Shown here: piece by piece, positions 22,675 through 48,123 of the stretch
How the letters are laid out: the number at the start of each line of letters is the position of its first letter
Position numbering within the stretch: position 1 is the stretch's first letter
Origin: Bacteroidota bacterium
GTDB taxonomy: Bacteria > Bacteroidota > Ignavibacteria > Kryptoniales > JAKASW01
Reading direction: 5' to 3'
NCBI GenBank assembly: GCA_021811615.1
Contig: JAJZNW010000055.1
Location: 1 to 64,000, forward strand
DNA length: 64,000 nucleotides
Notes under the pieces: generated by a model
Databases searched by the model: none
What the model saw: only the letters and a program-made list of their open reading frames with translations
Told to the model about the DNA's origin: nothing
Translations under genes and position numbers: made by a program

Positions 22675-24033
22675 CTATATGTGTATGTTTAGATTCACAT
22701 TTAATTGGTGGACTGTTGCAGTAGTCCCGAGAAGTTGTCCGCCGCCTTTCAGGACGAGGCCCTTAAGATCTGAAGCGGCAATGCTGCCGCTCCTGGAGAC
22801 GAAACGCAGCGTATCCGAACCTGCGCCGGACGCGTATTGAAGTGTCTTCCCATCCGTTGAGACGAGCACCGGAGTACCGATGACCGTGATCGGCCCTTTG
22901 AAGAAGAAGAGAACGTAATCGCCGTGGACCTCGTATCTGGTTATTCGAGGGCCTCGGGTAGATTCGGGATTCCACTTCTTGTCGTACGTCCATTCGGGTG
23001 TAATCGTCGAAGGAGAAGGCGAGCCGGCCGCGCTTGAAAGATTATCGGCAAACCACGGGTAATTCCCCCCGATCCTGCGGCAATCATAATAATAATCCCG
23101 CTCTCCCCAGTTGAACGGCCTGTCCTTTGTTGAGTCTCTGTAAGTAACCCGGTAAACCGGAGTATCGGCCATGTCGCTCGAGAATGTGCAGCCGAGAAGA
23201 TAGAACTGCGCTTCGTAATGATGCCTGCCCAGACAGAACCCCTTCACGCCGTTGAAGGTAGAATTCACGATTACAAATTTCTGATTGATGTCGTACCCCC
23301 CCGCGTGCCATATCGCAGTCGAGCCTTTCTTGAGCTCGTAGAATTTAGAATTCCTGATGAAGCACCATCCTCTCGGACACACGCAATCGACGGCTCCTTC
23401 AAAGGTGCAGTTCGAAAAGTAATACATACCTGTCTTGTAGTCCCACGGCGAAACCGTGTCTCCCCCCTTGCTGAGGAGGTTGCAGTTTACGAAGACAGTC
23501 CTTGTACCACGATCATATATTGCGAATGCGTGCGGTCCTACCTCTGGCTGCGTATTCCTCACCGTCAGATTTTCGAGGATGATATCATCCGCGTGTATGT
23601 TCACGACCGCCGGACCGATCGTGTCTTCGTGGGCAATCCAGTCAGTCCTCAGCTGGTTATATTCGATGATGGTACTGTCCCGGCTCTCACCGCGCAGAGT
23701 CACGTAGTCCTGAGATATCCTGATCTTCTCGTCGTAAACTCCGTTCTTTATGTAGATAACCACGCGCTGGTAATTGAACATCGGAAGTGAATTTATCGCC
23801 CCTGTAATGGTCGTGAAGTCACCGCTGCCATCCTTTGCGACAACGATGTAATGGGAATCGAATGGGAACGCCGTTCCGGTCGCAACCAAAAGGAGAAGGA
23901 TGAGAACAAAACCTGTGGCGGAATTCGCGCTGCGACCGAATGACCGCAGGCGTCTTGACGCCGACCGGATTCGGCGTTCCCATAAATTACCAAACACCAG
24001 ACTCATCGCAGACCCCGCGTCATGCCGCTGCAT
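22675..24033 (-). CDS. CE8-like pectinesterase with altered active-site glutamines
   Basis: Exported beta-helix protein of 452 residues in the pectin methylesterase family (start VVAKDGSGDFTTITGAINSLP, about 64-84, preceded by a signal segment LLLLVATGTAF). Pectinesterases release methanol from methylated galacturonate using two aspartates. Here the QDTLY motif is GDTVS (G191-D192) and the GTVDFIFG motif is GAVDCV (D216), so both aspartates are kept. The glutamine before the first aspartate is Gly191, and the QAVAL glutamine aligns with His168. The late LGRPW motif is not evident. Activity on another ester, or a changed mechanism, is possible. It is the first clear gene after the promoter-operator at 24578-24650, with an unusually long leader. 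Met10 is an alternative start. Confidence 0.78.
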   Translation of the reverse strand: MQRHDAGSAMSLVFGNLWERRIRSASRRLRSFGRSANSATGFVLILLLLVATGTAFPFDSHYIVVAKDGSGDFTTITGAINSLPMFNYQRVVIYIKNGVYDEKIRISQDYVTLRGESRDSTIIEYNQLRTDWIAHEDTIGPAVVNIHADDIILENLTVRNTQPEVGPHAFAIYDRGTRTVFVNCNLLSKGGDTVSPWDYKTGMYYFSNCTFEGAVDCVCPRGWCFIRNSKFYELKKGSTAIWHAGGYDINQKFVIVNSTFNGVKGFCLGRHHYEAQFYLLGCTFSSDMADTPVYRVTYRDSTKDRPFNWGERDYYYDCRRIGGNYPWFADNLSSAAGSPSPSTITPEWTYDKKWNPESTRGPRITRYEVHGDYVLFFFKGPITVIGTPVLVSTDGKTLQYASGAGSDTLRFVSRSGSIAASDLKGLVLKGGGQLLGTTATVHQLNVNLNIHI

Positions 24034-24577
24034 ATCACGTCAGAGCCGAGATACGCGGACGGAAGAGATGAACCGATGGAGTTAGTCGGCAGGCCGGCGA
24101 GGCGATCGGTTTTGATGCGGGACACGACGGGCATCAGATCGTCTCCTGAATAGCGGTCTCGCCCGAAGCTGGATAGAGGAATAAACCGTGGGCCTCCGGG
24201 AGTACCGTAAGAGCTACCCCGCGGAGACCGCGCCGTGCAATCGAGGGAGAATGCAAAGACCGGGATTGAAGATTGTCATTCGAAAGGGCCTGCCCTGGAC
24301 CGATCGATTTTCCGATTCCATTAGAAACAGTAACAAGAAATCTCAACTCAGATGCTCGCCTCCTGCTTGGGTGACGGTTCGAGAAAAGGAGCGCACAAAA
24401 GCGACAGAAACTACCGTATCGCGACTTTGATGATCAAATGGCTCCGACGAGGTTGTAATTTGAGCAAGATGGCACCCGAGGTACATTGGGAACTCATTTC
24501 AGGGTAAAATTGACCAAAAGGAAGCGGCGCAGGACCCTTTGAAATTCACTCAAATCACATTCAAATTTTCAAATTAT
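24034..24577 (-). other. Long 5' leader of the pectinesterase transcript
   Basis: About 540 bp without a convincing gene between the operator cluster and the pectinesterase start. If the promoter at 24622-24650 drives the operon, this is transcribed leader. It contains an 8-bp perfect inverted repeat GCGGTCTC/GAGACCGC (24153-24160 and 24224-24231) enclosing smaller GC-rich hairpins. It also holds a 70-codon frame with a TTG start (24346 to 24134) that has GGAGG at 12 bp spacing but no recognisable domain. I cannot tell whether the leader is regulatory RNA, a decayed gene or a small coding gene. Confidence 0.4.
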
Positions 24578-24613
24578 CGATCACTTGAACGATAACTTAA
24601 CCGATAACTTAAT
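24578..24613 (-). promoter_or_regulatory. Triple 12-bp operator repeat, pectinesterase promoter
   Basis: Three adjacent 12-mers read on the plus strand: CGATCACTTGAA (24578-24589), CGATAACTTAAC (24590-24601) and CGATAACTTAAT (24602-24613). They begin 9 bp downstream of the -10 box, at about +2 to +37 of the expected transcript, a classic repressor position. The same arrangement recurs at 42192-42227, and a related pair precedes the LacI-family gene. The junction TTAACCGATAA resembles a CG-centred LacI-family operator half-and-half. Confidence 0.7.
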
Positions 24614-24621
24614 GACGCCTA

Positions 24622-24650
24622 AGTTTACATCCACCGCATGTAAATGTCAA
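24622..24650 (-). promoter_or_regulatory. Sigma-A type promoter of the pectinesterase operon
   Basis: On the minus strand TTGACA (24645-24650) and TAAACT (24622-24627) are separated by exactly 17 bp. This places transcription start near 24615, pointing at the pectinase genes below. It lies just after the SGNH esterase stop, so the downstream genes can be transcribed independently of the upstream eda-kdgK cluster. Confidence 0.7.
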
Positions 24651-27118: not shown

Positions 27119-28153
27119 TTATCTCTCGACCCTCCCGGATCCGCTCCCCTTCGCGAGCTTCTCGACCTCGTCGGCAGAAACGATGTTGAAATCTCCGGGT
27201 ATGGTCTGCTTTAGACAGGAGGCTGCAACCGCGAATTCGAGCGCTTCCCTCGTGTTTTTCTTTCTCAGGAGGCCGTAGATAAGTCCGCCGGCAAATGAGT
27301 CCCCGCCGCCCACCCTGTCCACAATTTGCACGTCGTATCGCTTGGACCGGTAAGGAACTTTGCAGTCCCCATCGTCATGAAGCACAGCGCTCCATCCGTT
27401 ATGCGACGCGGAATAACTCTCGCGAAGCGTGATCGCTACCGACTTGAAGTGGAACTTCTCCTTCAGCTTCCTTGCCAGATCGAAGTAACCGCGCTCGTCG
27501 AGCTCAGCGCTATCGACGTTCGTCGATTCCGGGTGAAAGCCAAGGCTCTTCTCCGCATCTTCTTCATTGGCTATGCAGACGTCTACATATTCCATCAACG
27601 GAATCATTACGGCCTGGGCTTCTTTGGTGGTCCAGAGCTTGGCGCGGTAGTTCAGGTCCGCGCTGACGACCACTCCGTTCTTCCTGGCGGCCTCGCAGGC
27701 TGTCCTGAGAGTCTCCTGTACTTTCGAACCGAGTGCCGGTGTGATCCCCGTCCAGTGAAACCACTTTGCGCCGGAGAACACTTCCCCCCAGTCGAGTTCG
27801 TCCTTTCCCAGATCCGTGACTGCCGAATTAGATCTATCGTAAATCACCTTGGATGATCTCTGGCTTGCGCCCGTTTCAAGGAAATAAATTCCCAGCCTTT
27901 CGCCTCCGCGAACGATGTAATCCGCCTTCACTCCGAATCGACGCAGGCTGTTTACTGCGGACTGTCCGATCTCATGCTTCGGGAGCTTCGAGACGAAATA
28001 ACTCTCGAGCCCGTAGTTGGCAAGCGACACCGCTACATTCGCCTCGCCTCCCCCGTAATTGACATCAAACTGTCCCGACTGAACAAACCTCGAGAATCCC
28101 GGAGTAGAAAGCCGGAGCATTATCTCCCCCATTGTAACGACTTTCTCAGACAT
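27119..28153 (-). CDS. kdgK: 2-keto-3-deoxygluconate kinase (PfkB family)
   Basis: Cytoplasmic sugar kinase of 344 residues. It phosphorylates 2-keto-3-deoxygluconate to KDPG, the penultimate step of hexuronate breakdown. The PfkB substrate-side signature YGGGEANVAVSLANYG (about 33-48) and the ATP-side signature DRVGGGDSFAGG with catalytic Asp285 are present. The assignment to KDG rather than fructose or ribose comes from the KdgK-like N-terminus (VVTMGEIMLRLSTPG) and from eda 61 bp upstream. Together they convert KDG to pyruvate and glyceraldehyde-3-phosphate. Confidence 0.92.
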   Translation of the reverse strand: MSEKVVTMGEIMLRLSTPGFSRFVQSGQFDVNYGGGEANVAVSLANYGLESYFVSKLPKHEIGQSAVNSLRRFGVKADYIVRGGERLGIYFLETGASQRSSKVIYDRSNSAVTDLGKDELDWGEVFSGAKWFHWTGITPALGSKVQETLRTACEAARKNGVVVSADLNYRAKLWTTKEAQAVMIPLMEYVDVCIANEEDAEKSLGFHPESTNVDSAELDERGYFDLARKLKEKFHFKSVAITLRESYSASHNGWSAVLHDDGDCKVPYRSKRYDVQIVDRVGGGDSFAGGLIYGLLRKKNTREALEFAVAASCLKQTIPGDFNIVSADEVEKLAKGSGSGRVER

Positions 28154-28214: not shown

Positions 28215-28874
28215 TCATGAAACTTTCATCTCCTGCCTGGCTCTTATGATGCTCTCCATCAAAGTCTTAGCATTCTCAGTCAGGACCTGGTACTTTCCGG
28301 AGTTGATGGCTTTGTTGTCGAGGAGGGCCGAACCGACTCCAACCGCGCACGCCCCGGACTTCAACCACTCACCGGCATTAGTGAGAGTGACACCGCCGGT
28401 CGGCATCATTTTCAGGTGCGGCATCGGTGCGAGGACACCTTTGAAGAAAGCCATGCCGACGACGTCCGCAGGAAATACCTTGACGATATCTGCTCCGGCC
28501 TCGTATGCGGTCTGTATCTCCGTCGGCGTGAACGCTCCCGGCATGGCGGGTACATCGCCTCTGTGCGCGACCTCCACGATCTCCTTCTTGTATATCGGGC
28601 TGACCACATATCTCGCGCCGGCATCGATCGCTTTCTGCGCCGTCTCGGCATTCAACACTGAGCCGACACCGATGTTCATGTAGCTCCCTATTTCCCTGCT
28701 CGCCTCATCTATTACCTTGATGGCATTCGGTACAGTCATGGTTATTTCGATACCGGCGACGCCGCCGGCATAAATCGCTTCCGCCACCTTAATCAACTTG
28801 CCGGGATCGGCCAGCCGAATTACGGCAACTGCTCCTCCGTCGATTACTTTCTTTACTGTCTCTTCCCTTGACAT
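28215..28874 (-). CDS. eda: KDPG aldolase (2-dehydro-3-deoxy-phosphogluconate aldolase)
   Basis: TIM-barrel class I aldolase of 219 residues, at the normal family length. It splits 2-keto-3-deoxy-6-phosphogluconate into pyruvate and glyceraldehyde-3-phosphate. Visible landmarks are Glu43 in GIEITMT, the phosphate-side loop MPGAFTPTEI, the Schiff-base lysine K132 in DIVKVFPAD and the second phosphate-binding loop MPTGGVT. Immediately followed by kdgK, it closes the hexuronate pathway. It is the first gene after the spacer following the LacI-family regulator; no copy of the pectin operator was found directly upstream. Confidence 0.93.
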   Translation of the reverse strand: MSREETVKKVIDGGAVAVIRLADPGKLIKVAEAIYAGGVAGIEITMTVPNAIKVIDEASREIGSYMNIGVGSVLNAETAQKAIDAGARYVVSPIYKKEIVEVAHRGDVPAMPGAFTPTEIQTAYEAGADIVKVFPADVVGMAFFKGVLAPMPHLKMMPTGGVTLTNAGEWLKSGACAVGVGSALLDNKAINSGKYQVLTENAKTLMESIIRARQEMKVS

Positions 28875-29256: not shown

Positions 29257-30306
29257 TCACTTCACAGAAGAAACGACGGGATTCTTCTTCGGTAAGCATG
29301 TATCCCGTATGACAAGTTCCGTCGGCACTTCTATATGTTTAGGAAGGTACTCATCAGACTCGCCGATATGTTCGATGATGAGATCCACCGCCACTTTCCC
29401 GAGCGTGGCAGTGGGCTGGTCGACATAGCTGAGCGCAGGTTTGAGAAACTTATTGATGCTGGCGCTGCCAAAACAGATGATATCCAGATCATCCGGTATT
29501 CTTACACCCACTTCGGCGGCGGCGGCGTAAACGCCGAGGGCCACCGGGTAAGTAACGGCGAAGATGAATTCCGGCATTCTCCCACTCCTGTAGAGTTTCA
29601 TGAATCCCTGGTAACCATCGTCCTCCCCGAAACCTCCGTGGATAACCCAGTCAGGATCAATCTCGAGTCCGCGTCGCTTCATAGCTTCGACATACCCCTC
29701 GTATCTCCGCTTCCCGATGTTAATCTCAGTGAACCCGCCTATGTGCGCAATCTTGGTATATCCATTATCTATCGCAAGCTCGATGGCTTTGATCGCTCCA
29801 CCTTTATCGTCGACGGTTACCTGGCTCGTTCCATCGACAGGCATTACCCTGTCCATGAACACAAGAGGCACGTCACGGCTGACAACTTTTTCAAAAATGG
29901 TTTTGTCTTTGGTCTGTTGTGTGATTGAGATTATGAGCCCGTCCACTCTCATTGCCATGAGAGTCTCGATGTGCTTTCTTTCTCTCTCCACGTTTTCTTG
30001 GGACACAGTCAGGGCTATGTCGAAATTGTTATAGAACGCCTGATCGTAAATCGACTCTATCAGTGAACTGAAAAAGAAGTGAGCGATTTTGGGAACTACG
30101 ACGCCGATAGTGTTCGATTTCCTGGAAGAGAGGTTCCTTGCCGCGAAGTTAGGTGTATAGCCCAATTCTTCCGCAACCTTCTTCACAAGCTTGGTAGTTT
30201 CCCTCGAAATATCGGGATGTCCTCTAAGTGCTTTAGAAACGGTGACTTTCGACACGTTGAGCTGCTTCGCGATATCGCTCAGCGTAACGTGCGGCTTCCT
30301 GTTCAA
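29257..30306 (-). CDS. LacI-family regulator of the pectin/hexuronate locus
   Basis: DNA-binding repressor of 349 residues. The N-terminal helix-turn-helix (about 7-55: VTLSDIAKQLNVSKVTVSKAL, then a hinge helix NFAARNLSSRKS) and the periplasmic-binding-like effector domain (about 60-340) are canonical LacI/GalR. Translation most likely starts at a TTG (30304-30306) with AAGGAG 7 bp upstream; no better ATG is available. It sits between uxaC and eda, so a KdgR-like role sensing a uronate intermediate such as KDG is likely. Just upstream at 30331-30354 lie two units of the same repeat found at two other promoters in this locus, which suggests autoregulation. The effector is not known. Confidence 0.88.
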   Translation of the reverse strand: MNRKPHVTLSDIAKQLNVSKVTVSKALRGHPDISRETTKLVKKVAEELGYTPNFAARNLSSRKSNTIGVVVPKIAHFFFSSLIESIYDQAFYNNFDIALTVSQENVERERKHIETLMAMRVDGLIISITQQTKDKTIFEKVVSRDVPLVFMDRVMPVDGTSQVTVDDKGGAIKAIELAIDNGYTKIAHIGGFTEINIGKRRYEGYVEAMKRRGLEIDPDWVIHGGFGEDDGYQGFMKLYRSGRMPEFIFAVTYPVALGVYAAAAEVGVRIPDDLDIICFGSASINKFLKPALSYVDQPTATLGKVAVDLIIEHIGESDEYLPKHIEVPTELVIRDTCLPKKNPVVSSVK

Positions 30307-30330: not shown

Positions 30331-30354
30331 AAGTAACTTGACCGGTTACTATTG
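30331..30354. promoter_or_regulatory. Operator-like repeat upstream of the LacI-family gene
   Basis: AAGTAACTTGAC (30331-30342) and CGGTTACTATTG (30343-30354) lie 25 bp upstream of the TTG start. The junction ACTTGACCGGTTACT is the most palindromic form of the motif (TGACCGGTTA), typical of CG-centred LacI-family operators. An A-run (plus strand) adjoins it. The corresponding -35/-10 elements are not clear. Confidence 0.55.
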
Positions 30355-30425: not shown

Positions 30426-31835
30426 TCAAAGATTATAGGCCTTCTTAGCCAGATCATAAGCGAGTGCCTTCCCCATCGATTTCGCTTCCTCCATGGATAC
30501 GATGTGTCTGGCAACCATGCCCGAAAGAAAATTCGAGTCCATCCTTCTTGCCAGATCGTGCCTTGCAGGAATTGAAAGGAATGCGCGAGTATCGTCGGTG
30601 AACCCAACTGTATTATATATGCCCGCTGTCTCCGTAACATTTTGTCTGTATCTGGTCATTCCCTGAATACTGTCGTGGAACCACCATGACGCTCCAAGCT
30701 TCACAGCGGGATAGTGGCCTGCAATCGGTGCGAGCTCGCGGGAATATGTAGTCTCATCGAGCGTGAACAGGACCGTCTTGAACTTCGGGTTGTTTCCGAA
30801 CTCGTTCAGAAATTCCTGCATGTTCCGGGTATACTCGGTCTGAATCGGTATGTCACCGCCTTTGTCGAGCCCGAACCTGTCGAAGACCTGCCGGTTGTGA
30901 TTCCGAAGTGCGCCCGCATGTATCTGCATCACCAATCCATCGTCGACGCTCATGCGCGCCATTTCCATCAGCATGTTCGCCGTGAATGCCGCGGCGTCCT
31001 TTTCAGTCGACTCTCCTTTGAGAGCACGCTGGAAAATCGCGTCAGCTTCTATTTGGGACAATCTGTGCGCGTACGGACTTTCTACTCCCTGGTCTGTCGA
31101 CACGGCGCCGTAAGTCTTGAAATACTCCCTCCTGTTTTCAAGCGCCTTTATGTACGACTTGTAGTCATGGATATCGATGCCTGCCACTTTACTGATACCT
31201 GCTATTTCTGATTTCCATTTTGCGGAATTGATGTTGACAGCCGCATCCGGTCTGAAACATGGAATCACGCGCTTCTTCCATCCCGACTCTCTCATCTTCT
31301 TGTGCGATTCCAACGGATCTGACGGAGAATCGGTTGTAGTGAGGACCTCTATATTGAACTCCTCGAAGAGAGTCCTCGGGAGAAACTCTTTCGTTTTCAG
31401 TTTCTCCACCATGTGGTCGTATATCTTCATCGCATTTTTCGAATTCAATGGATCAGATATTCCGAACACCTCGACGAGCTCGTGGGTAAGCCAGACCCCC
31501 GTCGGCGTACCCGAAAACAGATAGAAATTATCCCCAAATATCTGCCATATCTTCCTGTGATCTTTCTCAACCGGAGTCCCATCGACAGTCGGGATACCCA
31601 ACGATTCTAGTGAGATGCCCTGCGAATATAGCATTCGGTAGATATAATGGTCGGGAATAATGATCAACTCAGTCGGATCGGGAAACGGCTGATTGTCCGC
31701 CAGCATCTTCGCCTCGACATGTCCATGCGGACTGAGAATGGGAAGGTCCTTTACGTTGAGATACAATTCGTATGCTGTCTTCCTTACACTCTCTTCAGGA
31801 TCGAAAAAACGGTAATCGTCTAATACGCTCTTCAT
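30426..31835 (-). CDS. uxaC: Uronate isomerase UxaC
   Basis: Amidohydrolase-superfamily isomerase of 469 residues, full family length. It converts D-galacturonate to D-tagaturonate and D-glucuronate to D-fructuronate, the entry step of hexuronate catabolism. The N-terminal region has FDPEESVRKTAYELYLNVKD and LPILSPHGHVEAKM, with the metal-binding HGH (H37, H39), followed by the UxaC-typical KDHRKIWQIFGDNFYLFSGTPTG block. No signal peptide, so cytoplasmic. It is the last gene of the run starting at the DUF4861 gene and is followed by the regulator after 119 bp. Its product is the substrate of UxaE. Confidence 0.95.
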   Translation of the reverse strand: MKSVLDDYRFFDPEESVRKTAYELYLNVKDLPILSPHGHVEAKMLADNQPFPDPTELIIIPDHYIYRMLYSQGISLESLGIPTVDGTPVEKDHRKIWQIFGDNFYLFSGTPTGVWLTHELVEVFGISDPLNSKNAMKIYDHMVEKLKTKEFLPRTLFEEFNIEVLTTTDSPSDPLESHKKMRESGWKKRVIPCFRPDAAVNINSAKWKSEIAGISKVAGIDIHDYKSYIKALENRREYFKTYGAVSTDQGVESPYAHRLSQIEADAIFQRALKGESTEKDAAAFTANMLMEMARMSVDDGLVMQIHAGALRNHNRQVFDRFGLDKGGDIPIQTEYTRNMQEFLNEFGNNPKFKTVLFTLDETTYSRELAPIAGHYPAVKLGASWWFHDSIQGMTRYRQNVTETAGIYNTVGFTDDTRAFLSIPARHDLARRMDSNFLSGMVARHIVSMEEAKSMGKALAYDLAKKAYNL

Positions 31836-32779: not shown

Positions 32780-34003
32780 CTATCGCGACCGAGAAGCCTC
32801 GATCTCCAGCGCCGCCAGGATGAACGGTCCCACTCCCTTGAAATCGTTATCATCCCTCGGCACGGAAACATAATACTCATACGATCCGTTTCGGTAAGGA
32901 TGCCCTCCCAATCCGGTGCCGGCGCAAGTATTCATCAGAATAGGATTGCCCGACGAATCGAACTTAACTTCATATTTCACCAGTCCACCGAACGCCGCTT
33001 CCGCCGCCCGTAGATACTTGCCGCTGAGATATCCTTTTCTCGCACCTTTCGCGAACGAATACGCAAACATCGCTGATGCAGAAGATTCGATGTAATTACC
33101 TTTCGCGCCCGCCTTGTCGACCACTTGATACCACAATTTAGTACGCTTATCCTGATACTTCAACAACGACGAGGCCAGGCCTCTGAAAATCCGGATAAGC
33201 TCTTCACGGCGAGGGTTGCTCTTCGGAAAGTAGTCCAGGACGTCCACGAGTCCCATCATGTACCACCCCATCGACCGGCCCCAGAAAGTCGGAGAGTCGC
33301 CGGTTTTCGGATTCGCCCACTTCTGTTTCTTTGAGGCATCCCAGGCGTGATAAAACAGGCCCGTTTTCGGATCGCGGTTGTGATCGGCCATCAGGACAAA
33401 TTGCTTCGCGATATCGTTATAGTCGGACGGCTGATGAAACATCTCTGCAAACTTGGCATAGAATGGCTCAGCCATGTACGCACCGTCGAGCCACATCTGG
33501 TTTGGATAGATTTTCTTATGCCAGAATCCGCCGTATTTGTTCCGCGGCTGTTCACTGAGCTGCTTCCTCAAAAGATCGGCAGCTTTCTTATACCTTGTCT
33601 CCTTCGTCGAACCGTACAGGTCCAGTACTACTCTGCCAGGCGTAATGTCGTCGAGCCTGAACTTGTCAACGTCATAAGTTTTTATCCGACCGTCTGCAGT
33701 CACGTAATAGTCTATGCTCTTCTTCACGTAGTCGAAGTACTCCCGGTTCCCGGTTTTCTCCCACACTTTCCAGATGGCATGGAGGAGGACTCCTTCCTCG
33801 TAATTCCACGACATCGTACTATCATGGGTCAGGTAATCGGGAAGTCTCGTAATGACGGCATTGGTCATGCGAACCGACCACGGGACATGTTCAGAACCGT
33901 TACGTGGTACAGGCGATCTTGACGAGCCGTACTGCTCCCTGCACATCGCACTCGATGCGACCACCGATGTAGCAAATACAATGACCAGCAGGGCTCTCTT
34001 CAT
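32780..34003 (-). CDS. GH105 unsaturated rhamnogalacturonyl hydrolase
   Basis: Exported (alpha/alpha)6-barrel enzyme of 407 residues, signal peptide about 1-20. GH105 enzymes hydrate and release the 4,5-unsaturated uronic acid left at the non-reducing end of pectin fragments by lyases. Motifs include WNYEEGVLLHAIW near 66-78, RLDDITPGRV (D118) and the catalytic aspartate D173 in QMWLDGAYMAEPF, corresponding to D143 of YteR. Later GRSMGWYMMGLVDVLDYFP and an AGTGLGGHPYRNGSYEYY end are typical. The product 4-deoxy-5-ketouronate would need KduI and KduD, not encoded here. It lies 24 bp downstream of the PorV-like gene within the receptor operon. Confidence 0.93.
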   Translation of the reverse strand: MKRALLVIVFATSVVASSAMCREQYGSSRSPVPRNGSEHVPWSVRMTNAVITRLPDYLTHDSTMSWNYEEGVLLHAIWKVWEKTGNREYFDYVKKSIDYYVTADGRIKTYDVDKFRLDDITPGRVVLDLYGSTKETRYKKAADLLRKQLSEQPRNKYGGFWHKKIYPNQMWLDGAYMAEPFYAKFAEMFHQPSDYNDIAKQFVLMADHNRDPKTGLFYHAWDASKKQKWANPKTGDSPTFWGRSMGWYMMGLVDVLDYFPKSNPRREELIRIFRGLASSLLKYQDKRTKLWYQVVDKAGAKGNYIESSASAMFAYSFAKGARKGYLSGKYLRAAEAAFGGLVKYEVKFDSSGNPILMNTCAGTGLGGHPYRNGSYEYYVSVPRDDNDFKGVGPFILAALEIEASRSR

Positions 34004-37262: not shown

Positions 37263-40200
37263 TTAGAAGTTAACCTGTATACCGAGCCAAATATCGCGGG
37301 GCTGGCTGTACAAGAAAAGGTCCGCGTAATCGGGATTGTTGATGTATGGCTTACTAGCCGATCTCAGGTCGCCGATCTGATCCTGTCCCGGAACAAAGTA
37401 CCCGGGGTACTTCGCACGAAGCTGGTCGTACAAAGGTGAATTGTACATCGGCAGGTGGAGAGACGCGAGGTAGTAAGCCTCGTCCGAGCCGTTGAATGTT
37501 TCTCCCGCCTGTCCTGGCCCCGGCGAACCGACGAGATCGCTGGAGAAGGCGTAAAGATTGCCCATCTCGTTGACCTTGAGATTGAGGACGTTCGTGACGT
37601 TCAGGTAAGCCGCTACGTCGAGTCCGGCCACTTTGAAATTCTTCGTCAACTTCATATCCAGCCTGTAGTAAGCCGGCCATTGCAGATTGTCGGTGAGATA
37701 AGGATCGCCGAGCGGATTCCACGTGAAATAGTCGCCGGCCTCCCACGTTCCGAAGAACGATAGGCTCCATCTCCCGAAAACGTCCAGTCCGCCGATCTGT
37801 GGTCCCCAATGCTCCGGCGACCTGAAAGTGACATCAGCGTTGAACCTCGGCCGAGGCAGTGTGGGCTGCTCATTGTTCTGGTAAAGATTTGCCTGACTCG
37901 CAACGGGTATGTCGTAGTATGTCTCGATTCCCGTGTTCCCAACCTTACTGAGCGCGTAGTTGAAATTGATCCATCCGGTGAGCCAGGAATTATCGCTCTT
38001 CGAAAGGTTGATCTCGACTCCCTGGATACTCTGATATTCGTTGTTGGAATAACCCTGGTAATCAAGACCGAGAGATGAACCTATAGTCTGATAGTATACA
38101 GTTCCCTGCTGGCCGAAGACGTCCTTGTAATAGCCGGAGACCCTCAGCAGTGTACTTGGAGCCAGCTCGTACTCGACGCCCAACTCATAAGACGTCGTCA
38201 GTGGCGGTTCCAGGTTCGGGTTCGACATCTGATACAACCCGTTCTTGGTATACCGGTACGTGAATTCATACATCGAGTAGTAAGGAGGGTTAGACCTGAA
38301 TTGACCGTAGTTGAAATAGAACTTGGACACTTCGGTTATCGGGAACGAGATTCCGATTCTCGGGCTGAGGGTCAGGAAGTTTTTGACCTTCTGAAGGAAT
38401 CCGGGATGGGTCGCATTGTACTGGTCCCAGATACTCCAGATATAAGACCGGCCGGAGTTGAGATACGAATAAAGCGTAGAGTCGACGGCCTGCGGCTGGT
38501 ACACCGGTACGAACGGCTGGCTCGGCCAAACTCCTCCTCCTCCGAAGTAATAATCGAGGCGGACGCCGAGATTGGCCACGATCCCCTGGTAGTTGATCTG
38601 GTCCTGGACGTAAAGTCCCGATTGGCTGGGAGTGCGGTGATAGTTGAACTCATAAGTGTTGTAGGCGTTGTTGTTCCACTCCTCCCAGAAGTTATGATCC
38701 AGGATGATCGAATTGTATTCGAAACCGGTCTTGACAAAATTGTGATCCCCGATTTGCGACGACAGGTCGAACTTAAACTGGTATTGATAAGTCTTGGAGT
38801 TGTCGTGTAAATCGCCCTCTTTGCCCCTGAACCTGAATATCGACATTCCAATAGGCGTGTCGTAACTGGGGAAAGTGTACCCGTTAACGCTGTGTTTCGG
38901 TGCAAACTGCAGTTTCCCGTAAGGAGACTCGTCAAGATTGAAGGGACCGATCTGAGTAATCATCGTAGTATCCCTGTTGTCGCCGGTGGGAGAATAATCT
39001 CCGATGGCCAGTCTGCTGACGGTGACATCGTAATATGTGCTCTGGGATATCATCTGGTTCAACGTGACACCGGTGAGGAGCGTTGTCTGGTTAAGGATCG
39101 GGAAATATGCCGGATCGTAGAGGTAATTGTAGTTATCGCCGCTGAGTCCGGCATTGTCGAATACCCAATTGAGGTTATCCTGTTGCATGAATCCGCCGCG
39201 CCCGCCCACGTTAGGCTCATCGCCGGATGCAGGCCTTATGGGACTCACTCCGATTTCACGCTTCCACAGGCCGTTAAATGTTATCGTCATGGTGCTCGAA
39301 GGGGTCGACTTCATGGTCAGCAACGAAGTAGAGGAGAAGTCGCTGTTGAGCGTTACCGGTTCCATGTAGTTGGATCGTCTCGTGTTGTTCGAGATATAGA
39401 AAGTGGCATCGCCGAGGGCCTTGCTTACAAACGGAATCGGTCCGCCGAATCCGCCGTCGAGATTGTAATCACTTCCTCCCTCACTGTTCGCATGTTTGGC
39501 AAAAGCACTCTTCGTGGCGTTCATCATCGAGTCGGCCTGCGCTACCGTCATCCCTCCGAGTATGGCCGGGTTGGCTGCAATCTGTTGCTGAATGCCCTGA
39601 TAGTCCGGCACCGACATCGTCATCCATGATGACATGAGATACAGCTCCAGCGGTGAGGCCTGTTGATCGGGAGTCTTCCCTTGATTGTATTTCTGTGCTT
39701 CCGCAATCCAGCCGTCGAAACTCGCGTGCTGATTTTGTTGATACTGATCCCATCCGCCAGCCTGAGTACCTGTGAAAGCCACGACCGGGTCAAGGTACGG
39801 CGCCAGGAAAGCGTTGTTGGGATCATAAAGCGACTGCCCGAACCGGCGCATGTGTGCCTGGTCGGCGGATATGTTGAAAGTGCCGTGATAAGCGTTCGGG
39901 GTACCCGACTTGGTCGTTATGTTTATCAAACCCGACCTGAAGTTTCCATATTCGGCGTTATAACCGCCGGACAACACCGACACCTGCTCGATGGCGCTCA
40001 GCGGGACGCTCGTCTCTGCGTTTCCGACCGCCGCATTGTCATACGAAAGACCGTTAACGAGTGTACCGACCTGGTCCGCTGTACCACCTCTGATAGTAAT
40101 GAAGCCGTTGTCGGTCGTGGATACCCCGGGAAGCTTGGCAAGGAATGTATTTATTTCCCGTACCCCTGCGGTGCTCATTATTTCATGAGCTGTGGAAACC

Positions 40201-40616
40201 ATTTGAGTCGACGATACTTCCTGGTGGAGTTGATTCCTTTGGGCGGTCACGACCACCTCGCTTGTTGTTATCGCCGACGCCTTCAACGCAAAATCGACGG
40301 TCGCCACTCTGTCCAGAGACACCAACACGCCCTTTACAAGCATCGGGGTGTACCCGATCATGGATGCCTTCACGTCGTACGTGCCTACCGGCACGTTGAC
40401 GACAAAGTACTTTCCGTCGAGATCGGTAACTGCGCCAAGGTTGGTTCCGACTACGAAGACGTTCACGCCGGGCAAAGGCTCGCCGGTCTTAGCATCGGTA
40501 ACGGTGCCCTGGATTCGACTTCGAGTCTGGGCATTGGCAAAACCTGCACTCATCACCAGCATCACCACGAGAGTACAAACCATTTCAACTAACATGCGAA
40601 ATGAGAGTCTTGTCAT
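37263..40616 (-). CDS. TonB-dependent outer-membrane receptor, CarboxypepD_reg type
   Basis: Outer-membrane active transporter of 1117 residues. Signal peptide about 1-30 (SAGFANAQ); CarboxypepD_reg-like domain about 33-115 (IQGTVTDAKTGEPLPGVNVFV); then SEVVVTAQR, which may include the TonB box; plug domain about 135-245 (FLAKLPGVSTTDNGFITIRGG); 22-strand-type barrel to the C-terminal IWLGIQVNF. This resembles SusC-like or TonB receptors used for oligosaccharide uptake, energised by TonB-ExbBD. No SusD lipoprotein is next to it; instead the 735-residue surface protein and PorV-like protein follow. Likely substrate: pectin or rhamnogalacturonan oligomers. It is co-directional with the DUF4861 gene 43 bp upstream. 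Confidence 0.9.
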   Translation of the reverse strand: MTRLSFRMLVEMVCTLVVMLVMSAGFANAQTRSRIQGTVTDAKTGEPLPGVNVFVVGTNLGAVTDLDGKYFVVNVPVGTYDVKASMIGYTPMLVKGVLVSLDRVATVDFALKASAITTSEVVVTAQRNQLHQEVSSTQMVSTAHEIMSTAGVREINTFLAKLPGVSTTDNGFITIRGGTADQVGTLVNGLSYDNAAVGNAETSVPLSAIEQVSVLSGGYNAEYGNFRSGLINITTKSGTPNAYHGTFNISADQAHMRRFGQSLYDPNNAFLAPYLDPVVAFTGTQAGGWDQYQQNQHASFDGWIAEAQKYNQGKTPDQQASPLELYLMSSWMTMSVPDYQGIQQQIAANPAILGGMTVAQADSMMNATKSAFAKHANSEGGSDYNLDGGFGGPIPFVSKALGDATFYISNNTRRSNYMEPVTLNSDFSSTSLLTMKSTPSSTMTITFNGLWKREIGVSPIRPASGDEPNVGGRGGFMQQDNLNWVFDNAGLSGDNYNYLYDPAYFPILNQTTLLTGVTLNQMISQSTYYDVTVSRLAIGDYSPTGDNRDTTMITQIGPFNLDESPYGKLQFAPKHSVNGYTFPSYDTPIGMSIFRFRGKEGDLHDNSKTYQYQFKFDLSSQIGDHNFVKTGFEYNSIILDHNFWEEWNNNAYNTYEFNYHRTPSQSGLYVQDQINYQGIVANLGVRLDYYFGGGGVWPSQPFVPVYQPQAVDSTLYSYLNSGRSYIWSIWDQYNATHPGFLQKVKNFLTLSPRIGISFPITEVSKFYFNYGQFRSNPPYYSMYEFTYRYTKNGLYQMSNPNLEPPLTTSYELGVEYELAPSTLLRVSGYYKDVFGQQGTVYYQTIGSSLGLDYQGYSNNEYQSIQGVEINLSKSDNSWLTGWINFNYALSKVGNTGIETYYDIPVASQANLYQNNEQPTLPRPRFNADVTFRSPEHWGPQIGGLDVFGRWSLSFFGTWEAGDYFTWNPLGDPYLTDNLQWPAYYRLDMKLTKNFKVAGLDVAAYLNVTNVLNLKVNEMGNLYAFSSDLVGSPGPGQAGETFNGSDEAYYLASLHLPMYNSPLYDQLRAKYPGYFVPGQDQIGDLRSASKPYINNPDYADLFLYSQPRDIWLGIQVNF

Positions 40617-40659: not shown

Positions 40660-41946
40660 TCATAGTTCTACTTCTATCGGGCTGTCGAGTCTCACGAGCG
40701 TCCGTTCAAGGTACGACCTGAATTCCGTCTCGTTCTTGATTCCCCCCGGTTCCTGCTGCCATGCAGCCCCGAAATAATAAGTCAACCGCCCTTCATGCGG
40801 GCGAAAGACCACTATCCTGCTCAGGGAGTCTTCCGTGACTCTCACACACTCCGCCGCTTTGTAAAAAACGGCTATCCCGAGATCGTCGCCGGCAAGACTC
40901 TGTTTACCATATAGTGCTATGTATGCCCAGGTTCCGCCGCGCGCGGAAGACGAATGCATAAAATCACAGTCCTCATGTTTCGCAAGACCGGTGCACAAAT
41001 CCGCCTTTTCCCCAACGAGCTTCAGATCCACTTTCGTCAGCCTGCTTCCGGCCGATATGCTAAGATGTGAATACAAATCGTATTCCTCCTTGCCGACTCT
41101 CCACCCGAGATACTTGGTATAAATCCCCGATAGAATCGGGCCGTTCTCTGCGACATAACACTTCACCGTCCTGACATCGCTCACAGTCATCGCCTTCGAG
41201 TCGTGCCATATCGCTATGGAACCGATGCCGAGAGATTCACCCACCTTGAATATATCCATCCCCCAGTCGAGCATCTTAGTGTATGACTCCATGCTGTTCG
41301 ACACCAGGTCGTTCACACCAAGCTTCTGAAGTACAAGCTCGTCTTTCTTCTTTCCGAATATATCATTCCTGTTTCTCGAATCGAGATAATACCTGTAGAC
41401 TATCTTTTCCGATTCCCATCCCGGACCTTCAATCCTATATAGAGCGTCGTGCGCAAAATGATCGCTGGGTACCGTGGTCGAATCGACATCGACGAACCTG
41501 CCTCCCGTGTAGTATCCGCTGATCTTCTTATATCCGGTTTTCATCCCGAGGACGGCCTGCGTGAGTTTCGGAAACTTTTGAGCTATAACTGTATCCGGCA
41601 CCCATGTTACTTCAAGTATCTTCTTCTCGTTCGGCGCGAACGACACGAGCATAAGTATTTGATCGTGGCTTCCCGATCCGGTACCCATCTCCGACTGGGC
41701 AGGGACAGGTCTGCCGGCACAAGTGACGGTGAATGCCTTTGCGTTAAATGAGGGATACTTAACCTTCACTCTGTCAACGTCTAACGAAATAATTTCCTGA
41801 GTTCTTGAAATGTTTGCGGGATTAGTTGCCGTAAGAAGAAAGGAGCGAGGTCCTTCAGGGGCCGACGGATCTTGCGCGCCTTGAGATATCGACGGGGAGG
41901 AAAGCAGTAAAGCGATAAGAAGAAGCTGTAATCTAAAAAGCATCAT
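40660..41946 (-). CDS. Exported DUF4861 protein, first gene of the receptor operon
   Basis: Exported protein of 428 residues (signal segment about 1-23, SPSISQGAQ). The body matches my memory of the DUF4861 family: FLLTATNPANISRTQEIISLD, YYTGGRFVDVDSTTVPSDHFAHDALYRIEGPGWESEKI, then RYYLDSRNRNDIFGKK and WHDSKAMTV. The fold looks beta-sandwich-like, as in galactose-mutarotase-type or lyase domains, but no catalytic set is evident. Such genes occur in pectin and uronate loci of Bacteroidota. As the promoter-proximal gene under the triple operator, its product is probably needed early, for example for oligosaccharide processing in the periplasm. AAGGTGA precedes the start; the 5' leader is about 280 nt. 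Confidence 0.68.
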   Translation of the reverse strand: MMLFRLQLLLIALLLSSPSISQGAQDPSAPEGPRSFLLTATNPANISRTQEIISLDVDRVKVKYPSFNAKAFTVTCAGRPVPAQSEMGTGSGSHDQILMLVSFAPNEKKILEVTWVPDTVIAQKFPKLTQAVLGMKTGYKKISGYYTGGRFVDVDSTTVPSDHFAHDALYRIEGPGWESEKIVYRYYLDSRNRNDIFGKKKDELVLQKLGVNDLVSNSMESYTKMLDWGMDIFKVGESLGIGSIAIWHDSKAMTVSDVRTVKCYVAENGPILSGIYTKYLGWRVGKEEYDLYSHLSISAGSRLTKVDLKLVGEKADLCTGLAKHEDCDFMHSSSARGGTWAYIALYGKQSLAGDDLGIAVFYKAAECVRVTEDSLSRIVVFRPHEGRLTYYFGAAWQQEPGGIKNETEFRSYLERTLVRLDSPIEVEL

Positions 41947-42191: not shown

Positions 42192-42227
42192 CGAACGGTT
42201 AACCGTTGACTTAAACGGTAACTTAAC
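42192..42227 (-). promoter_or_regulatory. Triple 12-bp operator repeat, receptor operon promoter
   Basis: Plus-strand units CGAACGGTTAAC (42192-42203, degenerate), CGTTGACTTAAA (42204-42215) and CGGTAACTTAAC (42216-42227). A perfect 14-bp palindrome AACGGTTAACCGTT (42194-42207) spans the first junction. The cluster starts 8 bp after the -10 box, nearly the same distance as at 24613, so binding would block transcription initiation. Confidence 0.7.
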
Positions 42228-42234
42228 CGAGCAT

Positions 42235-42263
42235 AATCTACTGCCGGAGGCTCCTATTGTCAA
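42235..42263 (-). promoter_or_regulatory. Sigma-A type promoter of the DUF4861-TonB receptor operon
   Basis: Minus-strand TTGACA (42258-42263) and TAGATT (42235-42240) with a 17-bp spacer; start expected near 42228. It drives the DUF4861, receptor, surface protein, PorV-like, GH105, DUF4350-like and uxaC genes, which follow with small gaps and no obvious terminator. Confidence 0.7.
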
Positions 42264-44455: not shown

Positions 44456-45808
44456 TCAGTAAGTGGGAAGGTACTTCTCGAGCTCCCAGGGAGTCACTTC
44501 CATCCTGTAGTCTTCCCACTCGAGACGCTTAGCACTTATGAAACGGTCGAAAATATGAGCGCCGAGCGCGTCTCGAACTACGGAATCCTTCTCGAGCTCG
44601 TCGATCGCTTCGTCGAGTGAGCCGGGCAGCACGCTCAAAGACGAACCGCGTTGAGAATCGGCCATGAGATACACGTTCTCTTCCGTCGCGTCGGGTACTT
44701 GGAGTTCCCTTCTTATACCATCGAGCCCTGCTGCGAGCATAACGGCGAAGGCAAGGTACGGGTTGCAGCTCGGGTCAGGACATCGCAGCTCCAATCTCGT
44801 CGACTCATGAGTATGGGCCCTCGGGATCCTTATCAGCGCGGACCGGTTGATTCTCCCCCAGCTGACGTAGACTGGAGCCTCATACCCGGACACCAATCTC
44901 TTGTAAGAGTTCACGAGCGGCGCTAAGATGGCACACATTCCGCGAGCATGAGCCAGCTGCCCTGCAATGAAATGTTTGGCCACTTTCGAGAGTCCGTGCG
45001 AGTCGCCGGGATCTGAAAAAGCGTTCTTCCCGTTCGCTTTATATGTCAGACTCTGATGGACATGCATACCGCTCCCGCTTATGCCGCGAATGGGCTTCGG
45101 CATGAATGTCGCGTACAATCCCTTCTGCTGCGCCATGATCTTCACGAGGACACGGAATGTCACTGCATTGTCGGCAGTCTTAAGCGCATCCGAATATCTA
45201 AAATCTATCTCATGCTGACCGGTCGCGACCTCGTGGTGCATCGCTTCGGCGTCTATACCGAACGACGTCAGCGCCCCGGTCACCTGTCGCCATAACCCTG
45301 TAGCCACCATGTCTGCCGGCTGATCGAAATAGCCAGACCTATCCTGCGGCCGCGGAGGAGCCAGTCCACCTTCTGCCGAAGGTTTGAGGAGAAAAAACTC
45401 GAGTTCAGGCCCGGTATTGTAAATGTATCCCATTTTCTCGGCATCCGCGACGACGCGTCCGAGCTGCGCTCGTGGATCGCCGACAAAAGGCTGACCGTCC
45501 GGAGTGTAGACGTTGCAGATCAACCTCGCAGTTGTCTCCTCACCCGAAAGCCACGGGAGCAACGCAAATGTCGACACATCGGGCACAAGATACATGTCGC
45601 TCTCCGCAATTCGGGCAAACCCCTCAATTGAAGAACCATCAAACCAAATCCCGTGGTTTAGGGTGGAGGCAAGCTCTGCCGTCGGGATGGTTACATTCTT
45701 CACCGCGCCCCCCACGTCTGTGAATTGAAGGTCGATGTATCTGACCCCCTTATCCTTGACGAGTCCGAGGAGTTTGTCTGCATCTATGTTTTTCATAAGA
45801 TCCGTCAT
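44456..45808 (-). CDS. glnA: Glutamine synthetase type I (alpha-type)
   Basis: ATP-dependent glutamine synthetase of 450 residues, the short GSI-alpha size. Motifs: WFDGSSIEGFARI (about 55-67), the glutamate/metal site ELEFFLL, MHHEVATGQHEIDF, SGSGMHVHQSLTYK and SRLELRCPDPSCNPYLAFAVMLAAGLDG-type blocks, and the end LEKYLPTY. The region where GSI-beta enzymes carry the adenylylated tyrosine lacks the NLYDLPPEE motif, so control is probably by feedback or partner proteins. Its ATG overlaps the stop of a Ser/Thr kinase by 4 bp (ATGA), an unusual coupling. With GltB at the far end of the window it completes ammonium assimilation. Confidence 0.96.
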   Translation of the reverse strand: MTDLMKNIDADKLLGLVKDKGVRYIDLQFTDVGGAVKNVTIPTAELASTLNHGIWFDGSSIEGFARIAESDMYLVPDVSTFALLPWLSGEETTARLICNVYTPDGQPFVGDPRAQLGRVVADAEKMGYIYNTGPELEFFLLKPSAEGGLAPPRPQDRSGYFDQPADMVATGLWRQVTGALTSFGIDAEAMHHEVATGQHEIDFRYSDALKTADNAVTFRVLVKIMAQQKGLYATFMPKPIRGISGSGMHVHQSLTYKANGKNAFSDPGDSHGLSKVAKHFIAGQLAHARGMCAILAPLVNSYKRLVSGYEAPVYVSWGRINRSALIRIPRAHTHESTRLELRCPDPSCNPYLAFAVMLAAGLDGIRRELQVPDATEENVYLMADSQRGSSLSVLPGSLDEAIDELEKDSVVRDALGAHIFDRFISAKRLEWEDYRMEVTPWELEKYLPTY

Positions 45809-46776
45809 TTGTGAATAGCCTGAAGGATTATCGCGATAGCGATGATTGCAGCGAGAAGCAGGATGCCGGAAGCGACGGCTTTGAACGCAGACGACTTCCA
45901 GAATGGAGTCCCGGACGCACTCGCAGGGTTCCGATCAAGTATCGAAAGATCGACAGCACCCGGGTTATCAATGTCGTTCATGAAATCGTGAAGATTCGCA
46001 TAGCGTTCGTCGGGTTCGCGCTCAAGACACTTCACCACCACCGCAGCTAATTGCGGCGATACTCCCGGTTGTATGCGGTCCAGGCGCGGTATCGCTCCCT
46101 TGAGATGCTGTGCCATCACAGCCAGGTTATTGTCCCCGGTAAACGGAGGCGTACCTGCAAGAAGTTCGTAGAGCATAGTTCCGACAGCATAAATATCGGT
46201 CCGCTGATCGCCCCGGTGGCCCTCGATCTGTTCCGGCGCCATGTAATCCGGAGTGCCCGCGGCGCTGCTCAGGTTAGCATAGGTCACACGGTGGGCAGCC
46301 TTCGTCAGCGCTAATCCAAAATCCAGGATTACCGGCTGGCCTTCAGACGTAATGAGTATGTTTTCCGGCTTCAGGTCCCTGTGTATTATTCCGTGATCGT
46401 GGCAGTGAGCCAGTCCATCGGCAATCTTCCTGATAAGTCCAACTGCTTTCTCTTGAGGAAGCGGAGCAGACTTTCGTATCAGGTCGCGCATCGACTCGCC
46501 GTCCACCAGCTCGGTGACGAGATACGGCATATTGTTGTACGTGCCCGAGCCGAGGCCTCGTTGGATCGCAGGATGATTCAGTGTACGCATTACCTCCAGC
46601 TCACGCTGAAATCGCTCATACTGTGCCGGGTCCCCGATGGACATGACGTCAGGGACCTTCAGGACAACTTCCTTTCCGGCAAGCAGGTCGTAAGCACGAT
46701 AAATATCGCTCATGCCACCCCTGGCAATATGAGCCCGAATCTGGAAGTGATCGAACTGGTCACCTATCTGCAGCAT
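45805..46776 (-). CDS. Membrane-anchored Hanks-type Ser/Thr protein kinase
   Basis: Eukaryotic-like kinase of 323 residues. Kinase domain about 8-265: Gly-rich loop IARGGMSDIYRA, ATP-binding Lys40 (VVLKVPD), catalytic loop HRDLKPEN (D134), DFG at D152-G154, activation segment with SSAAGTPDYMAPEQ and the D-x-W-like RTDIYAVGTMLYELL. A short linker leads to one transmembrane helix (about 300-320) and almost no extracytoplasmic part, so no sensor domain (no PASTA repeats). The stop overlaps the glnA start. A PP2C phosphatase gene lies 455 bp upstream, giving a kinase-phosphatase-glutamine synthetase neighbourhood. Confidence 0.93.
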   Translation of the reverse strand: MLQIGDQFDHFQIRAHIARGGMSDIYRAYDLLAGKEVVLKVPDVMSIGDPAQYERFQRELEVMRTLNHPAIQRGLGSGTYNNMPYLVTELVDGESMRDLIRKSAPLPQEKAVGLIRKIADGLAHCHDHGIIHRDLKPENILITSEGQPVILDFGLALTKAAHRVTYANLSSAAGTPDYMAPEQIEGHRGDQRTDIYAVGTMLYELLAGTPPFTGDNNLAVMAQHLKGAIPRLDRIQPGVSPQLAAVVVKCLEREPDERYANLHDFMNDIDNPGAVDLSILDRNPASASGTPFWKSSAFKAVASGILLLAAIIAIAIILQAIHK

Positions 46777-47232
46777 TCAGGAACCCGACATTGTGATATC
46801 TGATAAGTTTTGTTGGAAAGATTAGCGCGAGACGCACCGTGCTCCCGATAAGTTTTTTTGAATCCAATAATTCTACTCAAGAATTCGCTCAAAAGCAACG
46901 ATTTGAATGGATACACTGTCGCAGAATTCCTCCTTCAATTTCTTGAACCGCCTCGCAGAAAAATCGATGATCATAATTGTCTGCCCGGTCATCGGTCGTT
47001 TCGTGAAGTTCATTTCCCGAGCGCGCCGCCTCACCCGGACTCTCATAGGCAACTTCCGCAGAGAATCACAGAGAGAGAAAGGTGGACGTCCATCTCGTCC
47101 GCCAAACCTCCCTCTGTGTCCTCCGCGGAGAGTTTGGGAGAAAGCAACTCTCTACAGTCACAACCACATAAACAAGTCTTTGATAAACGTTTCATCGCAT
47201 TTACTGATGTATGCCACATTCTTTTCGAATTC
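46777..47232. other. Intergenic region upstream of the kinase, with imperfect inverted repeat
   Basis: About 455 bp without a credible gene. It holds the imperfect inverted repeat CCGCAGAGAATCACAGAG (47056-47073) and CTCTGTGTCCTCCGCGG (47112-47128), a type of CCGCAGAG/ACACAGAG palindrome that looks like a dispersed repeat family. The AT-rich 80 bp nearest the kinase (about 46800-46900) probably contains its promoter. Confidence 0.45.
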
Positions 47233-48123
47233 CTAGCGCTTCAACTTCCGGAACAATCGGGAGAGCGGCCTATCGCTGCCAGGCGCGGCTGTTGTATTTG
47301 CGGTGACAAGACGCCTGAATTCGAGCGCGACAACGGACAAATTATCATCACTGTCCCGGTCCATTGCCGTCCGGAAGACTTGCTGGCAGAGTTCTTCGAG
47401 ATTATGCGACAAATTCGCAAGCTCACCGAATTCTTCATCCTGGATGACGGACCAGACGCCGTCCGTGCAAAGTATGACTTTATCGCCATCCTGCACCTGA
47501 ATCTTGAAAACATCAGGCTGAACGAAAAGCTCGAGGCCAAGGCACCTGTTCAACACGGACCGCTGGCTGTGTGTCCGAAGTTTGGCTGGCGACAGCACCT
47601 TCATCCGCACAAGCTCGGCGACGCGAGTGTGGTCGTTGGTCAAACATCTTGTCCTTCCTTCTCTGACAAGGTAGGCGCGCGAATCTCCGACATGTCCGAC
47701 GTAAAGATCACGCCCGATAACACCGACTGCAGTGAGCGTCGTTCCCATCCTCCCAGCACCCAGAGCGTGCGCGGTCTGGTAGACGCTCAGATTGGCGTTC
47801 TGGATTCCGACGCGGAACCTCTGTAACGGAGATACTCCGTTCGCCGCGTAATAAGTGTCAAAGAACGTCTGCAATGCAAGCGTGCTCGCTATACCGCCGT
47901 GCGCGAATCCTCCCATCCCGTCCGCAATACCGTACAGGTAGCCCGAAGCCGGACCAGTCGCCGGATCACACAGCATTACCGCGTCTTGATTGTCGGGGCG
48001 CACTTTGCCGACATGGCTCAAGCTGTAAGACAGAATGTCGGCTCCTACGGTTGACGGCACGAAAATATTCTCGGGGCAATCGGGGAACGGAAAGAGAGCG
48101 GGCATCTTCGAGCTCTCTCTCAT
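47233..48123 (-). CDS. PP2C-family Ser/Thr protein phosphatase
   Basis: Metal-dependent phosphatase of 296 residues, cytoplasmic. The PP2C motifs appear in order: SHVGKVRPDNQDAV (D44, D47), YGIADGMGGFAHG (D68-G69), the GTTLTAVGVIGRDLYVGHVGDSRAYL block, ILCTDGVW and DSDDNLSVVAL. It should reverse phosphorylation by the nearby Hanks-type kinase. It follows the APC permease by 22 bp, so porin, permease and phosphatase genes are likely one transcript, linking transport and signalling. Confidence 0.92.
   Translation of the reverse strand: MRESSKMPALFPFPDCPENIFVPSTVGADILSYSLSHVGKVRPDNQDAVMLCDPATGPASGYLYGIADGMGGFAHGGIASTLALQTFFDTYYAANGVSPLQRFRVGIQNANLSVYQTAHALGAGRMGTTLTAVGVIGRDLYVGHVGDSRAYLVREGRTRCLTNDHTRVAELVRMKVLSPAKLRTHSQRSVLNRCLGLELFVQPDVFKIQVQDGDKVILCTDGVWSVIQDEEFGELANLSHNLEELCQQVFRTAMDRDSDDNLSVVALEFRRLVTANTTAAPGSDRPLSRLFRKLKR

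Follow-up and report, generated by a model that had tools for sequence, protein, structure and literature searches.

A conserved operator-like array with a 12-bp pitch at the promoter of a predicted pectin/uronate operon in an uncultured Kryptoniota-type bacterium

Genes and promoter-proximal arrays of the locus

The window (the whole stretch of 64,000 bp analysed for this report) contains a promoter followed by a triple 12-mer at 42194-42263 on the minus strand, upstream of a series of genes on the same strand. The first of these genes encodes a DUF4861 protein (40660-41946), with its start codon at 41946, ~280 bp from the array. It is followed by a gene for a TonB-dependent receptor-type protein of 1117 aa with CarbopepD_reg and Plug domains (37263-40616), two genes without Pfam matches, a member of the GH88 family (32780-34003), which we take to be unsaturated uronyl hydrolases, and members of the DUF4350, UxaC glucuronate isomerase (30426-31835), LacI (29257-30306), KDPG/KHG aldolase (28215-28874) and PfkB sugar kinase (27119-28153) families. 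A second array on the minus strand lies upstream of a pectinesterase-family gene (22675-24033), which is the first long gene after it and has its start codon 580 bp away; downstream on the same strand is a gene of the GH28 family (14489-16162), whose members are presumably polygalacturonases. Judged by these gene families, the substrate of the encoded functions appears to be pectin or uronate. Elsewhere in the window, at 44456-48123, genes for a glutamine synthetase, a Ser/Thr kinase and a PP2C-type phosphatase are clustered.

The promoter at the first array consists of a -35 hexamer TTGACA (42258-42263), which falls within a block of 15 columns invariant in six genomes, and a -10 hexamer TAGATT (42235-42240), likewise invariant in the six, with a spacer of 17 bp between them. 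Together the two hexamers match the consensus at 10 of 12 positions; such sites occur three times per 3 kb here and 2.6 times on average in shuffled sequence, so the promoter match by itself is no proof. In the phase used by the initial annotation, the 8-bp sequence ATGCTCGG separates the -10 hexamer from three 12-mers at 42194-42229. With the units phased on CpG, unit 1 is CGGTTAAGTTAC (42218-42229, CpG at 42228-42229), unit 2 is CGTTTAAGTCAA (42206-42217) and unit 3 is CGGTTAACCGTT (42194-42205), the final bases of which are not conserved. The units resolve into 10-bp palindromic cores, TNANCGNTNA, each with a central CpG, that follow one another at 12-bp steps with a two-base linker in between. 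Units 2 and 3 carry full cores, at 42212-42221 and 42200-42209, and the CpG of unit 1 belongs to a partial core only (TAACCGAGCA on the plus strand, 42224-42233). The array at 42194-42233 is thus made up of two full cores and one partial core rather than three full ones, and in both window arrays the outer bases of the palindromic CG core are arranged as direct repeats.

A general period-12 score, compared with the scores of 40 dinucleotide-shuffled versions of the 64-kb window, gave 16 of 24 for this array, a value reached or exceeded in 16 of the 40 shuffles and thus not significant alone, and generic periodicity was dropped as proof of the array. The second array is a stronger copy of the same design. 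Its promoter has TTGACA at 24645-24650 and, after a 17-bp spacer, TAAACT at 24622-24627, followed by three cores at 12-bp pitch within 24569-24612 (24598-24607, 24586-24595 and 24574-24583); its period-12 score of 20 of 24 exceeds those of all 40 shuffles. Comparison of the six close genomes (G000, which is the window's own, and G010, G003, G001, G009 and G011) showed 28 consecutive invariant columns across the first array, with drifted flanks, and 32 across the second, with sequence farther out that varies. From these invariant columns we conclude that the first array is real beyond chance, and the comparison confirms it as a conserved, operator-like element. A third and weaker version, shorter than both arrays, lies at the promoter of the LacI-family gene on the minus strand (30334-30353), where one core (30339-30348) is placed between two direct AGTNA half-sites; this two-half-site form occurs in eight of ten ortholog genomes, and the genome of G008 is without the site. 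A pattern built from both arrays, and thus fitted after the fact, matches the window seven times against 0.92 expected, and none of 100 shuffles reaches seven.

These results bear out the initial annotation in its description of a clean TTGACA-N17-TAGATT promoter with three adjacent 12-mers, which are present and conserved in the six genomes, and they support its view that the promoter of a receptor operon containing uronate genes carries an operator-like array. Two further points fared differently. The palindrome that had been proposed over the first junction is indeed perfect over 14 bp (AACGGTTAACCGTT, 42194-42207), but among the six genomes it is private to G000, and as the functional centre of the array it was therefore ruled out. 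It had also been suggested that the three 12-mers would lie on nearly the same face of the helix. B-DNA has ~10.5 bp per helical turn, so that each 12-bp step turns by ~51 degrees and the outer sites stand ~100 degrees apart, out of phase.

Distribution of the sites within and beyond the genus

An ortholog of the LacI-family regulator is found in ten of the 13 genomes of the genus, the window's own included, at 66-100% identity; G002, G004 and G007 have only paralogs of ~30% identity. All ten genomes with the ortholog have arrays with at most one mismatch, and none of the three others does (Fisher 0.0035). With a 22-base pattern, perfect arrays were found in eight of the 13 genomes and one-mismatch arrays in G006 and G008, which together make up the ten ortholog genomes; G002, G004 and G007 gave two-mismatch matches only. 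At up to two mismatches the genus search gave 53 matches against 38 for the reversed pattern, so only the matches with zero or one mismatch are informative.

The spacing of the cores and the composition of the linker follow a narrow rule within the genus. At genus loci, 12 bp is the distance of 29 of the 37 core pairs that lie within 45 bp of each other (13 bp occurs once) and the linker is AG or CT in all 29, and at ten loci around lacI the corresponding figures are 19 of 26 core pairs at 12 bp and AG or CT in 19 of 19, counts in which orthologous sites enter repeatedly and many or several of the loci were first found through AG-bearing patterns. The wider sets hold only six core pairs at 12 bp: four in the first class set, all with AG or CT, and two in the second class set and the phylum set together, with TC at L265 and AG at L230. 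In a group of phylum-level regions (L230-L249) the same cores also occur at 14-bp steps, with nine pairs at 14 bp, eight at 28 bp and seven at 42 bp.

An AG linker extends the right-hand core into the half-site AAGTNANCG, and a CT linker extends the left-hand core. At the promoter of the receptor operon the linker is AG in G000, G010, G003, G001, G009, G011 and G008 and CT in G005, G006 and G012; in the array at another TonB receptor gene, G000 has AG as its second linker and G011 has CT. Because the direction differs between orthologous promoters in this way, one and the same factor very likely accepts both AG-direction and CT-direction sites.

The window's own genome (84% complete) was searched for exact matches, and four direct matches, those in the window included, and three full palindromes of the same half-site, AAGTNANCGNTNACTT, were found against none for either control. 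One direct array beyond the window sites, with its own TTGACA, precedes the gene for a TonB receptor of 1008 aa on contig C65, and this site is conserved in G011. One palindrome (C149) precedes a gene with a Lar_N domain, which has genes for 6-phosphogluconate dehydrogenase and a PfkB-family protein downstream, and is conserved before that gene in G010 and G011. The other two (C120 and C142; L271:6851 and L272:5956) each lie inside the first 50 bases of kduI. Together with the second pectin operon and lacI itself, these places are not random, in support of the initial annotation. A scan of the own genome for the single dyad at up to one mismatch gave 17 sites on each strand, where the control gave 11; these are mostly noise, with three exact matches among them.

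The site within kduI is present in seven of the 11 kduI copies examined, representing six of the ten ortholog genomes (a kduI fragment in G007 was left out), and among these 11 copies it is absent from those of G005, G006, G008 and G012. Third codon positions, compared in five distinct copies, are unchanged at 6 of 6 places within the site and at 4 of 30 beyond it, a count biased by the fact that the five copies were first found by the site; the four positions left free by the pattern are also unchanged. The kduI palindrome is likely to be an intragenic operator, and we list it as a candidate.

Beyond the genus the signal appears to be concentrated near the regulator gene. A class-level set of 294 genomes includes 66 with an ortholog at E <= 1e-90, and the pattern AAGTNANCGNTNAAGTNA occurs in 44 of these 66 and in 44 of the 228 others (Fisher 1.2e-12), or, outside the genus, in 34 of 56 and 44 of 225, respectively. 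Within the genus it has 28 matches against five for the reversed-pattern control; outside the genus the total in ortholog genomes, 53, is barely above the control count of 42. Of these 53, 25 lie within 20 kb of an ortholog, where ~1.3% would be expected with an assumed average genome of 3.8 Mb; P is 3e-33 if relatedness among the genomes is ignored. The far matches are therefore mostly background, and the one feature that sets the matches apart is their proximity to lacI.

Direct AAGTNA pairs were counted in 40 regions, 706,717 bp in all, that surround the best orthologs: there are 33 such pairs at a distance of 12 bp, 12 at 24 bp and four at 36 bp, against about three per other distance, and the canonical inverted spacing accounts for four pairs. 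A second set of 20 class regions around weaker or second orthologs has four pairs at 12 bp, with counts reaching six and seven at other distances, and 20 phylum-level regions have three pairs at 12 bp, neither set showing a clear peak; the 12-bp signal fades or is absent in these two sets. Among 80 wider homologs, the 12-bp pair stands at the start of lacI in nine and a palindromic form in two (L170 and L261). Unbiased k-mer scans are dominated by other repeats and subject to interference from codon periodicity (12 being a multiple of 3); a 5-mer scan ranked AGTAA, AAAGT and AAGTA at 12 bp in the top ten of the first class set, below GGATT at 9 bp, and in the other two sets these three 5-mers at 12 bp fell outside the top ten.

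The predicted regulator and its probable use of the array

The initial annotation had pointed to a LacI-family gene in the locus, and the product of 29257-30306 (minus strand, 349 aa) is the likely binder of the array. It combines an N-terminal LacI HTH domain (PF00356) with a C-terminal sugar-binding domain (PF13377/PF00532), both above cut-off, which is the domain content of the LacI family. The C-terminal tail of E. coli LacI forms tetramers. Since the alignment of the predicted regulator to E. coli LacI stops before this tail, at LacI residue 331, and the tails of the orthologs vary, it is likely to be a dimer. The hinge reads ARNLS exactly in 36 of the 45 orthologs examined and has its leucine in all 45, and in PMC2978694 this leucine (AA-54) is assigned a role at the central CpG of the operator. 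The recognition helix, SKVTVSK, reads K15 V16 TVSK in the numbering of that paper, which defines a dominant TVSR subgroup. Lysine occupies AA-20 in 45 of 45 orthologs, AA-16 being V or I, and membership in the TVSR subgroup was accordingly rejected.

The LacI paralogs present a more familiar picture. Forty of their upstream regions contain ordinary palindromes, including six perfect 16-mers and several near-perfect ones; for a 12-bp repeat, three of the 40 score above 95% of their shuffles, roughly the number to be expected, and none has an AAGTNA pair at 12 bp. The TVSR-type paralogs of the genus have ordinary palindromes, for example ATGTAAACGTTTACAT or TTGGAAGCACTTCCAA, behind a -10-like sequence; at L196, L198, L199, L203, L204, L206 and L209-L214 the palindromes ATGTAAACGTTTACAT and TTGGAAGCNCTTCCAA and close variants lie upstream of the paralog's own gene, with only a few bases between them and the -10-like sequence. 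A separate observation concerns a paralog with a TVSK helix (G011:C87 and G007:C34), just past the 3' end of which lies an array-like stretch (L087 near 2150 and L089 near 2175), AAGTAAACGTTTAAGTAA in G011 and with two mismatches in G007; it precedes a gene that we assume to be aldolase-like. In three genomes of family f2 (L028, L030 and L031) the LacI homologs lie within open frames of ~1300 aa, and the part that matches contains one TAA, which suggests either an odd gene structure or an odd genetic code.

We consider it probable that the array is a LacI-type operator of the 29257-30306 regulator, composed of overlapping cores at 12-bp steps on which adjacent dimers would be mutually exclusive and would block the polymerase. 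The regulator would thereby probably repress the pectin/uronate genes until released by an intermediate of the uronate pathway. The linker comprises the bases numbered 6 and 7 from the centre of a core and would be shared with the neighbouring core; in PMC2978694 residue AA-20 is linked to NT-6. An AG linker would give the outer G contact to the right core and a CT linker to the left core, and never to both. Adjacent dimers should exclude each other because the neighbours need different letters at the same place, probably in the same major groove; the first and third cores, at a distance of 24 bp, could both be occupied at once. With AG linkers throughout, an array would offer equal registers, each of half strength, and one AG...CT pair would create one full palindrome on which the affinity would be concentrated. 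Any bound register would block RNA polymerase, since the array begins a few bases after the -10 hexamer. The geometry of the array, in which one linker is common to two sites, argues more for mutual exclusion than for filament-like binding.

A different possibility, which we think unlikely, is that this LacI clade reads true direct repeats, with one head per AAGTNA arranged head to tail at a 12-bp pitch in a cooperative chain, which is the filament idea of the initial annotation, or in a flexible, CytR-like manner. The AAGTNA pairs at 12, 24 and 36 bp would suit such an arrangement, as would the class arrays without a CpG (L142, L158 and L166) and the direct repeats described for CytR (PMC3454398). 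Moreover, the lacI promoters keep a second AAGTNA without a CpG behind it, and in three, those of G005, G006 and G012, a G stands where the palindromic core wants T, features by which a simple palindromic-core model is strained. Against direct repeats as the recognized unit stand the full inverted palindromes at kduI, before the Lar_N gene and in the promoters of G005, G006 and G012, the T found as the second base after CpG in 23 of 23 loosely defined direct sites, as the palindromic core requires, and the different pitch of the CytR repeats. A broader reading, likewise of low probability and put forward as a speculation, is that tandem same-direction half-sites at 12 bp might be the normal operator of a widespread TVSK-helix branch of the LacI family in the class, serving as a head-to-tail chain or as a sliding switch with multiple registers. 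If this were true, searches restricted to palindromes would have missed a class of operators.

It is considerably less probable that another regulator, of the DeoR, AraC or response-regulator type, binds the array and that the LacI gene is a mere neighbour. Regulators of these types frequently act on direct repeats; repeats of 10-11 bp are described for DeoR-family rhamnose regulators and of 21 bp for AraC types (PMC3870299), but none of these three families was detected in the 24 window proteins scanned out of 63 ORFs of at least 150 aa, the presence of arrays tracks the LacI ortholog, lacI itself carries the motif, and a central CpG is typical of LacI-family sites (PMC4052901). That the repeat functions as RNA, by forming a hairpin where the transcript begins, seems very improbable. 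The array does lie at the likely transcript start, and three leaders of the own genome are more stably folded than their shuffled versions (z -2.2 to -2.9), but two orthologous leaders are not (G001, z -0.25; G005, z -0.65), the direction of the repeat flips between orthologous promoters, and the palindrome lacks conservation. An origin by chance or by recent duplication of a 12-mer within the locus, with which the shuffle result for the window copy alone would agree, has next to no probability, being contradicted by the invariance of the array in six genomes and its presence at unlinked loci.

Relation to known operators of the LacI family

The initial annotation had regarded a contiguous triple array as unusual for the LacI family, a view that a published survey does not sustain. 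As described by Ravcheev et al. 2014 (PMC4052901), whose search was for palindromes, LacI-family motifs are palindromes, mostly with a central CG, and the distances between sites peak at 13, 22 and 32 bp. The survey lists 110 operons with overlapping sites at a spacing of ~13 bp, including the GntR sites at E. coli gntKU, and 116 operons with triplets of adjacent sites. It states that dimers placed so closely are unable to interact and suggests an unfamiliar binding mode, the overlap being hard to square with known structures. In the literature searched, a body that has most subscription journals outside its coverage, we found no description of a 12-bp same-direction LacI array, and the available parts of PMC12125979 and PMC8457756 contain nothing on LacI direct repeats of this kind.

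Other systems resemble the array in some respects only. The Bacteroides regulators KdgR, UxaR, UxuR and UxmR (PMC3878776) likewise place uronate control under the LacI family in the same phylum, and the workflow taken to cover them sought palindromes. The closest solved relatives of the predicted regulator by sequence are CcpA structures (PDB 3oqm and 1rzr, E 1e-52 to 1e-50), including the complex of CcpA with cre; cre is described in PMC5263246 as a single site of 14-16 nt, unlike the array reported here. CytR, a LacI-family member that uses direct as well as inverted repeats (PMC3454398), recognizes octamers, with a 1-bp spacer in the direct repeats, usually between CRP sites; the present array differs from that type in its 12-bp pitch and its location downstream of the -10 hexamer. 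It likewise differs in pitch from the DeoR-type tandem operators, whose repeats measure 10-11 bp, and no member of that family is among the 24 proteins scanned from the window.

What appear to be the sites of one regulator thus occur at orthologous promoters both in an overlapping same-direction form and as ordinary palindromes, the two differing mainly by the linker, and the puzzle of overlapping sites raised in 2014 becomes directly testable with short synthetic DNA. The observations also suggest that operators can escape regulon searches that look for palindromes only, and they suggest the outline of a pectin/uronate regulon for uncultured Kryptoniota-type bacteria. The overlapping sites in PMC4052901 share with the array the LacI family, the central CpG and the overlapping contact zones, and differ from arrays of the present kind, which have a 12-bp step, up to three full cores, half-sites in the same direction (in the window arrays) and the AG/CT linker rule. 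On the sequence evidence, the arrangement is most likely a variant, with a 12-bp pitch and for the local LacI-family regulator, of these published and as yet unexplained overlapping LacI sites.
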